Below are positions 23,096-59,038 of a stretch of 64,000 nt of DNA, piece after piece. How positions within the stretch are numbered: the stretch's first letter is position 1; the number at the start of each line of letters is the position of its first letter. Position numbers and translations under genes: made by a program. Source of the stretch: a bacterium (GTDB lineage Bacteria; Bacteroidota; Ignavibacteria; SZUA-365); assembly GCA_020444325.1 (NCBI GenBank), contig JAHLLD010000001.1:310001-374000 (forward strand), given 5' to 3'. The notes beneath the pieces are model-generated. The model made no database searches, was not told where the DNA came from, and saw only the letters and a program-made list of their open reading frames with translations.

Positions 23096-23112
23096 TATGC
23101 AGAAATTGCATA
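23096..23112. repeat. 17-bp palindrome copy upstream of bacterioferritin
   Basis: TATGCAGAAATTGCATA, one base from the family form TATGCAGAAACTGCATA. It lies 69 bases before the bfr ATG, between the aconitase terminator and bfr. Confidence 0.8.
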
Positions 23113-39462: not shown

Positions 39463-39479
39463 TATGCAGTTTCTGCATA
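39463..39479. repeat. 17-bp palindrome copy upstream of the aldo/keto reductase
   Basis: TATGCAGTTTCTGCATA, the exact reverse complement of TATGCAGAAACTGCATA, in the gap between the DUF4440-like and aldo/keto reductase genes, 81 bases before the latter's start. Confidence 0.85.
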
Positions 39480-40539: not shown

Positions 40540-42294
40540 TTAGTCCGATTTCATCAGATACGGCAGCAGCTTCATCAGCGTGTAATCCGCTGTCACCGGA
40601 GCCGATGCGGTAAATGCGTCGCGGATGCGAACACGATCGAACGCCTGATCATCGATGTCGAGGAAAGACAGATCCGGGGGGAAACGGAGTGAGGGCCGTA
40701 CGGAAGGCGCGTAGCGGCTCACGGCGTGATAAAGCCGCGGCCAGCGTGAGAGTCCCGCGCGACGGTACAGCCGTTCGAGCGCGACGGGAACGCGCAGCAG
40801 CCAGGGATTGGCAGTTGGCCAGGAAAGCACATCGGAGTAGGCGCGATGCAGGCGGCGCAGCTGCGGTACGTGCGTCTCGATGCTGAGCTGTTGGGGACGC
40901 TGACGCCAGCGCTTCGACGCTTCCATGCGTGCAATCAGCGCGACATACCTGCGGTCGTAGTACGGAGTCACGTAGCGAATATGCTGATTCTGCATAAGTG
41001 CGAGATCGGTCACATGCTGTGGCAGCAGCTGCTGCACGTAGAAACTGTCGGCGCAATATGCAGAATCTGCATAATTCCGCGGATCGGGTATCACCTGCTC
41101 GAGCTGCTCGATCGCGCGCCGCCTCAGGCGGTCTGCATCGCGTGTGAATCCGAGCACGTCTTCCTGCAGCAGCATGCGCGCCGACTCCCGCAGAAAATCG
41201 TCCCGCGTCTTCACGCGTGCGGCGGTGTTGCGCATGAACCAGCGTCCTTCAATTGAGGTGTGATTCCCGTCGAGCAGCATGCTCCCGTATCGGGCGTAGC
41301 GCCGGTGCACCTCGCTCGCATGAATGTTGTTGAAGGAAAGTACCCCGTTGCCAGCCGCGAGGAAGTCATCCTTTTCCTGCATCAGGTCGTAGGTGTCGGG
41401 CAGCCGTTCTTCGTGATGCTGCAGGCCGAGCAGACGGACGGTTTCCCTTGCAACGCCGATATCATGTCCCTCCTGCATGTAATGCGTCACAAAGCTGCAG
41501 TCTCGCCCCTCTGCATGCAGCACCGCCGCGATGGTGCGGCTGTCGAGTCCGCCTGTCAGTGCCGCAATGCTGCCCGTTCCTTCCATGTCATGCAGCGTCA
41601 GCACAGCCTCGCGAAACGCGTCGACGATATCCGCTTCGAGTCCATCATACGGCGCGGGATGTACCTCAACGGTGTCGTAACGGAAATGGGACGATTGTGC
41701 AGCGTCTCCGGTGAGATCAATATCCACCAGCGATGCTCCCGTCATCCGATGAATGCCTGCGTACATGGTTTTCCCACCCAGCGCGAAACCGAAGGCGAGC
41801 AGCTGCGCCATGCCGTCCTCGTCTTGCCGCAATCCCCCGCGCGCCTCTTTCCATCTGCACACCATGCGCAGCGAGGTTGAGAACACCGCGCCCTGTTCCT
41901 GCAAGCTGTAGTAGAGAGGAAGTGAAGCGAAGGGATCGGATACGAGTCGCAGATGCGTCCCGTCACAGCTGGCGGACTGAAACATCCCGTTGCAGTTGCG
42001 GGACAACTGTTCCACAGGCAGCGTGGCGAGCGCATGAGGCTCGCGGGAAAGCACGCTCTCCTCGAACATTACTCCGTCAAACACACCGATACCGGCACCA
42101 TCCGCCGCTTCGGAAAGCAGGGCGGGATACGGATACCGGGCGGATCTGATCACGCCGAGCATCACGCTCCCATCGGCCGATTGCTGCGTCTCGAGCAGCT
42201 GCTCCTCACCGACGTGCAGTTCGACTTCCTTCAACCAGGAATCGATCTCATCCCGCCGACGGGAGCAGATACCGAAGATTCCTGTTGGTAGCAT
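40540..42294 (-). CDS. Asparagine-synthetase-like protein without the catalytic N-terminal cysteine
   Basis: 584 residues. The first ~190 resemble the class II glutamine amidotransferase fold (GVFDGVMFEE, LRLVSDPFASLPLYYS), but the chain begins MLPTGIFGIC rather than Met-Cys-Gly, so the glutaminase nucleophile is missing. Residues ~250-560 are the ATP-pyrophosphatase synthetase domain with the PP-loop SIAALTGGLDSRTIA. It may use free ammonia or another amine, as seen in beta-lactam synthetase and other natural-product relatives; the product is unknown. Two copies of the 17-bp palindrome lie inside the gene and encode part of the protein (NYADSAYCADS, MQNQHI). Confidence 0.85.
   Translation of the reverse strand: MLPTGIFGICSRRRDEIDSWLKEVELHVGEEQLLETQQSADGSVMLGVIRSARYPYPALLSEAADGAGIGVFDGVMFEESVLSREPHALATLPVEQLSRNCNGMFQSASCDGTHLRLVSDPFASLPLYYSLQEQGAVFSTSLRMVCRWKEARGGLRQDEDGMAQLLAFGFALGGKTMYAGIHRMTGASLVDIDLTGDAAQSSHFRYDTVEVHPAPYDGLEADIVDAFREAVLTLHDMEGTGSIAALTGGLDSRTIAAVLHAEGRDCSFVTHYMQEGHDIGVARETVRLLGLQHHEERLPDTYDLMQEKDDFLAAGNGVLSFNNIHASEVHRRYARYGSMLLDGNHTSIEGRWFMRNTAARVKTRDDFLRESARMLLQEDVLGFTRDADRLRRRAIEQLEQVIPDPRNYADSAYCADSFYVQQLLPQHVTDLALMQNQHIRYVTPYYDRRYVALIARMEASKRWRQRPQQLSIETHVPQLRRLHRAYSDVLSWPTANPWLLRVPVALERLYRRAGLSRWPRLYHAVSRYAPSVRPSLRFPPDLSFLDIDDQAFDRVRIRDAFTASAPVTADYTLMKLLPYLMKSD
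40980..40996. repeat. 17-bp palindrome variant inside the asparagine-synthetase-like gene
   Basis: TATGCTGATTCTGCATA; its reverse complement differs at one position from TATGCAGAATCTGCATA. It lies 77 bases from the exact copy at 41057. Confidence 0.5.
41057..41073. repeat. 17-bp palindrome inside the asparagine-synthetase-like gene
   Basis: TATGCAGAATCTGCATA, perfect in both arms, in frame within the gene (encoding NYADSAY on the minus strand). It is identical to the copy at 58092. Confidence 0.85.
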
Positions 42295-57087: not shown

Positions 57088-57170
57088 TGCATTGCTGTGT
57101 CGCTGTTGAGGCTTTCGATTAATATCAGGATTTCTTGGGAGAAAAGCATAGGAAGGGTATTTTCAACCAC

Positions 57171-57208
57171 CGTATTTGCATGACCATTGTGCGTATTTGC
57201 ATGACCAT
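57171..57208 (+). repeat. 21-bp direct repeat at the RlpA start
   Basis: CGTATTTGCATGACCAT at 57171 and again at 57192, exactly 21 bases apart. The second copy contains the ATG at 57201 chosen as start. Confidence 0.8.
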
Positions 57209-57905
57209 CGTGAAGAGTTCCAGGATCAGAATACATACGGCCACCGCGCTCATTTTGTTCGCGGCGTTGAGCGTCTGCGCGCTTCCCCTGGCCGCGCAGC
57301 CCGGCTTTACGCAGACGGGACAGGCCTCCTACTACGGCAAGAAATTCCACGGACGCAAGACCGCCAACGGCGAACGCTTCAATATGTGGGCGCTGACGGC
57401 GGCGCATAAAACCATTCCCTTCGGTTCGCATGTGCGCGTGACCAATCTCGATAACGGGAAATCCATCGACGTGCGCATCAACGACTACGGTCCCTTCCGC
57501 AAGGGACGCATTATTGACCTCTCCCGCGGCGCCGCGGCGAAGATCGGCATGATCAAAACCGGTACGGCGCGCGTGAAACTCGAGGTACTCGGCGACGACG
57601 GGAAAGAGGATCACCAGAAGTCCAAGGGCAATGTCGAGTACTACGCGGTGGATATCCGCCGTGAACAGCTCGCGGGCTGGGCCGTACAGATCGCATCCTT
57701 CGAAAAGATGGAAAACCTCATCCGCTATCTCGACCGTCTGCGCGCACGCGATATCGACAACGTCTTCGTCCAGATGGCCACGGTGAAAGGAAAACTCGTC
57801 CACCGTCTCGTCGTCGGCGCCTATGAAACCGAAGCCGCCGCACGCTGGAAACAGAAGACCATGAAAGAACAGGGCGTGGACGGTTTCGTATTCCGCATCC
57901 CCTGA
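57201..57905 (+). CDS. rlpA: RlpA-type septal ring lytic transglycosylase with SPOR domain
   Basis: 234 residues from ATG 57201; upstream ATGs in frame at 57135 and 57180 are possible. Signal peptide, then the double-psi beta-barrel ([41 protein letters not shown] with the catalytic Asp, [16 protein letters not shown]). Residues ~160-230 are a SPOR domain ([39 protein letters not shown]) that binds denuded glycan at the division septum. RlpA usually reads NDRGPF; here it is NDYGPF. The gene is divergent from the GH76-like gene. Confidence 0.92.
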
Positions 57906-57910
57906 CCGTA

Positions 57911-57960
57911 GTGCGGGACCGAACCTTCGTGCGGGACCGAACTTTCGTGCGGGACCGGAT
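57911..57960 (+). repeat. 18-bp tandem repeat just past rlpA
   Basis: GTGCGGGACCGAACCTTC at 57911, GTGCGGGACCGAACTTTC at 57929 and a partial third unit at 57947. It begins 6 bases after the stop codon. Confidence 0.88.
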
Positions 57961-58058: not shown

Positions 58059-58141
58059 TATGCAGAAACTGCATATTTTTTTACGCGGCATTATGCAGAA
58101 TCTGCATATTTCCCGGGCCGATATTATGCAGAAACTGCATA
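58059..58141. repeat. Three 17-bp palindromes at exact 33-bp spacing
   Basis: TATGCAGAAACTGCATA at 58059 and 58125, and TATGCAGAATCTGCATA at 58092; starts are exactly 33 bases apart. All arms are perfect. The sites fill the gap between rlpA and the TraB/TIKI gene, ending 48 bases before its ATG. Confidence 0.92.
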
Positions 58142-58189: not shown

Positions 58190-59038
58190 ATGAAAAAGCT
58201 GCTTTCCCTGCTTTTCCTCATTTCCCTGTTTCCCCATGCGACTCCAGCGCAGAGCCTGCTCTGGAAAGTCGAGGGAAAGGACCTCAGTGCACCTTCCTAC
58301 CTTTTCGGCACCATTCACGCGCTTTGCGCCAGCGAGGCGGACCTGCCGGATATCGTGGTCGAAGGGGTGAACAGCACGGCGCAGATCGCACTGGAGCTGG
58401 ATCTGGACGATCCGGCGCTGCAGGTGGAAATGGGACATATCTCTTTCATGCCCGGTGACAGCACGCTGAACGATGTGTTCTCGCCCGAGGATTATGCCCG
58501 CCTGTCGCTGTACCTCAAGGATTCGGTCGGCATGTCACTCGATCAGATGAACAAGCTGCGGCCGTTTTTCCTGGTGGGACTGCTCATCACCAAGGTGCTA
58601 CGCTGCAAGGTGACGTCGTTCGAGGAAATGTTCATGGCGTTTGCGCGCACGCAGGACAAGGAAATCGTCGGCATTGAAACACCGGCGGAGCAGCTCGACG
58701 CCTTCAGCAGCATCAGTATGAAGGAGCAGGCCGACATGGTGATGGAGATGGTGGATCATATGGACAGTACGCGCACGGAATTCCGCAAGCTGGCGAAGCT
58801 GTACAAGGAACAGGACCTGGAGGGACTCCGCGAATTCGTCGAGCATTCAAATGTGGAATATGGCCGCTACAGTGCCGCCATGCTGGTGGACAGGAACGAG
58901 CGCTGGGTGCCGCGTATCGAGCGTATCATGCAGGCCAAACCCACGTTTTTTGCCGTCGGTGCGGGACACCTGCCTGGTGAGCACGGTGTGCTTTCCCTGC
59001 TTCGAAAAGCGGGCTACAAGGTGTCGCCGGTTCGCTAA
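58190..59038 (+). CDS. TraB/GumN (TIKI-like) family protein
   Basis: 282 residues from ATG 58190. Signal peptide to about TPAQS. The two signature halves are LWKVEGKDLSAPSYLFGTIHAL and AKPTFFAVGAGHLPGEHGVLSLLRKAGYKV, with the Glu/His pattern of the TIKI/TraB metalloprotease-like fold and DKEIVGIETPAEQLDAF between. The family is exported and its bacterial substrate is unknown. Three spaced palindromes lie upstream. Confidence 0.9.
   Translation: MKKLLSLLFLISLFPHATPAQSLLWKVEGKDLSAPSYLFGTIHALCASEADLPDIVVEGVNSTAQIALELDLDDPALQVEMGHISFMPGDSTLNDVFSPEDYARLSLYLKDSVGMSLDQMNKLRPFFLVGLLITKVLRCKVTSFEEMFMAFARTQDKEIVGIETPAEQLDAFSSISMKEQADMVMEMVDHMDSTRTEFRKLAKLYKEQDLEGLREFVEHSNVEYGRYSAAMLVDRNERWVPRIERIMQAKPTFFAVGAGHLPGEHGVLSLLRKAGYKVSPVR

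Follow-up and report, generated by a model that had tools for sequence, protein, structure and literature searches.

Operators of the lambda CI type are 17-bp TAT...ATA palindromes on which dimers cooperate at whole helical turns, and DNA uptake sequences are evenly spaced. A second kind of palindromic site is dispersed along the chromosome and belongs to a single DNA-binding protein, as with Noc in B. subtilis and SlmA in E. coli; systems of this type show depletion at the terminus and a binder of the ParB or TetR family that acts on division. The account in PMC4726725 gives about 70 sites for Noc and 24–52 for SlmA. The DNA uptake sequences (DUS) of Neisseriaceae, as described in PMC3630211, come in species dialects, occur inside genes and are associated with terminators at gene ends, while REP/BIME elements are presented in PMC2817692 and PMC3733652 as many extragenic palindromes that are sometimes regularly spaced. 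A literature search limited in its coverage and terms found no description of arrays such as those reported here.

The window, that is, the whole 64,000-nucleotide stretch that was analysed, contains three exact copies of TATGCAG-WWW-CTGCATA, at 58059, 58092 and 58125 (start-to-start distances 33 and 33 bp), and four further copies with at most one mismatch. The features are as follows.

23096..23112, no strand: single intergenic copy, one mismatch
39463..39479, no strand: single intergenic copy, exact
40980..40996, no strand: in-gene copy, one mismatch, 77 bp from 41057
41057..41073, no strand: in-gene copy, exact, codes for YADSAY on the minus strand
57135..57905, plus strand: RlpA-like gene (DPBB_1 + SPOR) upstream of the array, start uncertain, stop codon 153 bp ahead of copy 1
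58059..58075, no strand: palindrome copy 1, TATGCAGAAACTGCATA, exact
58076..58091, no strand: spacer 1, 16 bp, 7/16 bases match spacer 2
58092..58108, no strand: palindrome copy 2, TATGCAGAATCTGCATA, exact, +33 bp from copy 1
58109..58124, no strand: spacer 2, 16 bp
58125..58141, no strand: palindrome copy 3, TATGCAGAAACTGCATA, exact, +33 bp from copy 2, TraB ATG 48 bp downstream
58190..59038, plus strand: TraB/PrgY/gumN (TIKI) family gene downstream of the array, Pfam PF01963, 1.6e-62

With up to three mismatches allowed, the pattern gave 20 match rows in the window; dinucleotide shuffles predict 0.98, and not one of the 100 made attained that number of 20. The exact 33-bp phasing of the three copies, claimed in the preliminary description, is borne out. 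Its placement of all three on the same face of the helix holds roughly, since 33 bp corresponds to 3.14 turns of 10.5 bp, and the two in-gene copies, 40980 and 41057, are indeed 77 bp apart, a multiple of 11, which nonetheless amounts to 7.3 turns. That description had included neither the copies at 39463 and 23096 nor the genome-wide family. The TraB/TIKI gene begins with ATG and its product has an N-terminus resembling a signal peptide. An 18-bp tandem repeat, ACCGTAGTGCGGGACCGA, occurs three times at 57905–57958, beginning at the RlpA stop codon, and the peptide RICMTIV is repeated at the start of the RlpA-like ORF (57135–57200), whose true start may lie downstream. An Rfam search around the TraB array returned sub-threshold, chance-like matches only.

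The array is one member of a large family. In the genome that contains the window (G000; 4.65 Mb in 25 contigs), TATGCAGAWWCTGCATA gave 106 forward and 105 reverse rows, while its reversed control pattern gave no match. The exact AAA-centred form, TATGCAGAAACTGCATA, accounts for 139 sites and is present on each of contigs C1–C10 among the 100 matches listed. The total is estimated at ~307 sites, from 539 one-mismatch rows calibrated on 853 kb of sampled sequence in which 148 sites gave 260 rows. The sampled stretches hold 166 sites with at most two arm mismatches (98 exact, 56 with one mismatch and 12 with two), which form 86 clusters: 38 single, 19 double, 26 triple and 3 quadruple. Most of these stretches were picked for containing sites, so densities drawn from them are biased. 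The sharp fall from one- to two-mismatch sites suggests maintenance, though many stretches were picked for exact sites. The consensus reads A-W-TATGCAS-WWW-STGCATA-W-T, and the base just outside is never C.

Spacing within the arrays is nearly invariant. Between neighbouring sites less than 130 bp apart in the sampled G000 stretches, 64 of 80 spacings equal 33 bp; the others are 32 (three times), 34 (once), 39 (twice), 41, 42, 43, 51, 65, 73, 74, 75, 77 and 85 bp. A genome-wide search for pairs spaced by 17–47 bp found 86, and 43 of the 50 listed lie at 33 bp. Spacings other than 33 bp weakly favour whole turns (n=12, R=0.51, P~0.05 at 10.5 bp; n=17, P 0.04). Within triples, most spacers are dissimilar (a mean of 7.0/16 bases alike against a background of 5.8, with one clear duplication at 13/16), and the 33-bp pitch therefore reflects more than recent tandem duplication. 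The odd-centred symmetry of the sites, which extends to their flanks, and the constant pitch are in keeping with dimers that touch one another. The arrangement for cooperative binding that had been proposed for the array before TraB thus gains from the recurrence of 33-bp phasing throughout the genome, which is consistent with cooperation; its assignment specifically to TraB is not supported.

The position of the sites relative to genes bears directly on that assignment. Gene calls were made with a custom hexamer gene finder (which missed RlpA in the relative G002), and the context table leaves out 7 of the 86 clusters, which have two-mismatch members only. Although 88% of the sequence is coding, 103 of the 154 sites that are exact or have one mismatch are intergenic, 43 being in genes and 8 partly so. 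Thirty-eight intergenic arrays of at least two sites occupy 19 tandem, 13 convergent and 6 divergent gaps; by base pairs, 5.1 arrays are expected in convergent gaps and 11.5 in divergent ones, so that the former are enriched (P=0.0009) and the latter depleted (P=0.03). Gene 3' ends facing arrays lie 1–90 bp away in 43 of 48 cases, whereas gene 5' ends are at least 25 bp away, the TraB array being closer to its start codon than most. Clusters of exact sites on contigs C1–C3, the three contigs tested, are also more even than random (gap CV 0.65 versus 0.95 simulated, P=0.0006).

The alternative that survives these data best, and which we nevertheless regard as unlikely, is that a global transcription factor binds the arrays as cooperative dimers and that they are operators of the adjacent genes, including TraB. 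Phasing of palindromes is a classic feature of operators, the TraB array ends 48 bp before the ATG, and a palindrome pair in G002 occupies the same RlpA–TraB gap, 53 bp before the ATG. The sites do not, however, gather in front of the promoters of a set of related genes: convergent gaps are favoured over divergent ones, arrays sit close behind stop codons, many sites are in genes, and the genes whose 5' ends face arrays are diverse by sequence, and by Pfam among the ten proteins scanned. No sigma-70-like promoter was found at TraB. An operator specific to TraB/TIKI, the main proposal of the preliminary description, is not supported as the main function: arrays of the same kind adjoin unrelated genes, mostly near stop codons, and over a quarter of sites are in-gene. 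An effect on TraB expression is possible, given the third site 48 bp before the ATG. Off-promoter position, in-gene copies and even spacing together fit a chromosome-wide role better than TraB regulation.

The in-gene sites provide a view of how the family arises. They are read in frame 0 (YAETAY) or frame 2 (MQKLH), with frame 1 used once in 43. In the fumarase, RmlB-like and WecB-like genes the site aligns gap-free to solved homologues, and comparison with relatives gave ungapped sites in an oxidoreductase (G001), the WecB-like gene (G005) and racemase-, dipeptidase- and desaturase-like genes (all G004; these three names were read from the sequence rather than from a database). Overall, seven conserved genes have a site that is gap-free against at least one homologue, WecB-like appearing in both comparisons. 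An AMP-ligase triple falls in a gapped linker when compared with G002, and the remote desaturase match in G008 (28% identity) shows a two-codon gap. The gap-free alignments indicate that the sites of the tested genes were made by base substitution and not by insertion, which may be counted as support for selection or drive. On the coding strand, the centre of in-gene sites is AAA in 24 cases and TTT in 2; this is probably an amino-acid effect, because the sense-strand ratio in tandem gaps is 25:24.

The family is narrowly distributed. The exact site was found in 2 of 41 genomes, namely G000 and, as one site, its sister G004; a collection scan likewise matched one contig of G004, and in a 395-genome sample of the phylum the core pair at 31–35 bp occurred in G000 only, besides two low-complexity coding-like matches. 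No motif was found in the viral contigs scanned. In G004 the palindrome has drifted to approximately TGATGCRGAAACTGCATCA, with spacings of 33, 42, 51 and 31 bp on contigs mostly picked for containing matches, and two in-gene rows resemble tandem duplications. For most relatives, more two-mismatch matches are counted than for the reversed-pattern control (e.g., 28/28 vs 7/5 in G008); such an excess is not evidence by itself, and the case for G004 depends on exact copies and arrays.

G002 has a palindrome of its own, 27 bp long (ATTATT-N2-GYRACWGTYRC-N2-AATAAT), with 8 sites within three mismatches, at which threshold it is absent from 11 other genomes. Its spacings, weaker copies included, are 41, 41, 41, 45, 45, 75, 123 and 133 bp. 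Besides the pair in the RlpA–TraB gap, a 233-aa gene is followed by a site in G002 and by an array in G000, and a third G002 array is one gene away from one of G000. Position could be compared for three of six G002 loci, of which two are in the same place and one in the neighbouring gap, in DNA that favours site-bearing regions. Both motifs keep GC(A) 3–5 bases from the centre and A/T 8–10 bases out, common features which suggest that one evolving specificity may underlie them; a scan of the other genomes with the shared core gave nothing convincing. That spacing might be lost in relatives had been named as a refutation of the original proposal, and this was found in part: the sequence is kept at none of nine TraB orthologues, and the one palindrome pair in that position, in G002, differs in sequence and has a spacing of 41 bp.

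A relaxed palindrome-pair scan recovered the G002 family, which a stricter scan had been too strict to find, and gave no recurrent palindrome family in G001 (600 kb) or G003 (386 kb); its sensitivity is limited, as it did not list the G004 arrays. A role that is essential across the genus is therefore excluded. Isolated repeats in G001 and one pair in G003 look unrelated to the palindromes, as do the TTGAACATGC-like repeated units upstream of TraB in G001 (L034). The G000 clusters differ from CRISPR, a long array of a single repeat with longer unique spacers and adjacent cas genes, in having 1–4 units, 16-bp spacers and 86 separate locations, and they differ in sequence from parS, TGTTTCACGTGAAACA. 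A CRISPR-like array with a period of about 76 bp is present in G008 (L056 2531–3444), and parS-like TGTTTCACGTGAAACA pairs, 44–45 bp apart, occur separately in G002 and G004 (L062 4141; L099 8473).

The dialect-like drift between congeners and the substitution-made in-gene copies recall uptake sequences, which would accumulate through a preference of the competence machinery and diverge into species dialects. The position of the sites at the ends of genes adds to the resemblance to Neisseriaceae DUS (PMC3630211), and their even distribution matches that of uptake sequences in general. We consider this explanation distinctly improbable, as DUS are short and number thousands of copies whereas G000 has about 300, the fixed 33-bp pitch is not among the DUS properties described in the available text of PMC3630211, and a symmetric 17-bp site is better suited to a dimer.

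Copying of REP-like mobile palindromes by a RAYT-type transposase is very unlikely. The G000 sites are many, dispersed, mostly extragenic and near gene ends, and the genome carries other, GC-rich REP-like palindromic repeats with 39-bp, 87-bp and 22-bp periods (L011 699–840, 5397–5520; L014 7589, 10816, 18441; L010 1920). The flanks of the sites themselves, unlike those of REP/BIME elements, show neither a GTAG nor a CGTC tag in their composition, and in the conserved genes tested the sites carry no signature of insertion; the dissimilar spacers within triples also weigh against copying.

The symmetry is maintained at the level of DNA: among the 56 one-mismatch sites, 46 have an identical G>C change in one half-site, and the balanced 25:24 ratio of AAA to TTT centres on the sense strand of tandem gaps also speaks for DNA over RNA. 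Transcribed RNA hairpins that protect or terminate mRNA at 3' ends, consistent with arrays placed behind genes, with single copies that fold at −7 kcal/mol and with the T run that follows copy 1, have the least to recommend them, as the variants break the RNA pair in 53 of 56 sites, two G002 sites are poor hairpins (−1.7 and −4.7 kcal/mol) and an exact 33-bp pitch would be superfluous for RNA. The palindromes are very probably phased protein-binding DNA sites.

We propose a model in which a sequence-specific DNA-binding protein would occupy each palindrome, in double-stranded form, as a single dimer, and neighbouring dimers would touch at a distance of precisely 33 bp, close to three turns, and sometimes at about 42, 51–52 or 73–75 bp, building small, stable nucleoprotein clusters of 1–4 dimers. 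Some 300 such sites, spread along the chromosome more evenly than chance, with a preference for the DNA immediately behind genes and few between divergent ones, may then serve in nucleoid organisation or anchoring, like the dispersed sites of Noc or SlmA. The protein's specificity would shift between species, the sites being remade to match by point mutation. The copy number and the 33-bp rows near gene ends point to a chromosome-wide protein and not to a one-gene switch. Taken as a whole, the reading of chromosome-wide, cooperative phased arrays of a candidate lineage-specific dimeric protein, with a probably architectural role (suggested by position) in place of TraB control, is the one we favour, though we hold it with somewhat less than even confidence.

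No binder was found among Lrp, LexA and BlaI. Lrp was tried because of the 5-3-5 shape of the palindrome core, which is suggestive of Lrp/AsnC sites, together with a first presence pattern. G000 has one Lrp gene, adjoining glnA; the HTH is near-identical in G003 and G008, although both lack the exact palindrome, and the lrp promoter itself carries no site. BlaI and LexA were examined because a triple array lies near blaI and because of dimer binding. A single S24 match, with a different operator-like repeat upstream in place of the palindrome, was found for LexA in each of seven genomes. For BlaI/MecI, present in 8 of 9 relatives, most relatives retain a TACTAA-N4-TTAGTA-like repeat whereas the palindromes are not retained. 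Both proteins are disfavoured as binders, since they occur in nearly all relatives searched and have other operator-like repeats. Repeated AATCCGCGTAATCCGTGGTAAAGC units are present upstream of a BlaI-like gene in G002 (L163). The G000 sites share with lambda-CI-type operators the 17-bp TAT...ATA form; the sole S24-domain protein found in G000, which is LexA-like, has a different operator-like repeat.

The closest working parallel would be the dispersed Noc and SlmA nucleoprotein sites, with which the G000 family shares dispersal along the chromosome; it differs in its roughly 300 sites and in its 33-bp arrays, which the available text of PMC4726725 does not describe for Noc or SlmA. The dialects, the in-gene copies and the placement at gene ends resemble DUS, and the full definition of neither system applies. 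It is possible, and we put it forward tentatively, that this is a lineage-specific chromosome-marking system consisting of one protein and about 300 phased, fairly even sites, whose dialect and pitch change between congeners, which is rewritten by point mutation even in conserved enzymes, and in which some positions are kept while their sequence is replaced. These observations caution against taking such palindromes for private operators of the adjacent gene. If the sites are bound as we infer, the congeners form a natural series (33 bp; 33, 42 and 51 bp; 41 bp; apparently absent) in which to follow how a protein and its sites, numbering in the hundreds, shift their specificity in step, and to learn what advantage regularly distributed nucleoprotein clusters behind genes give to a bacterial chromosome.
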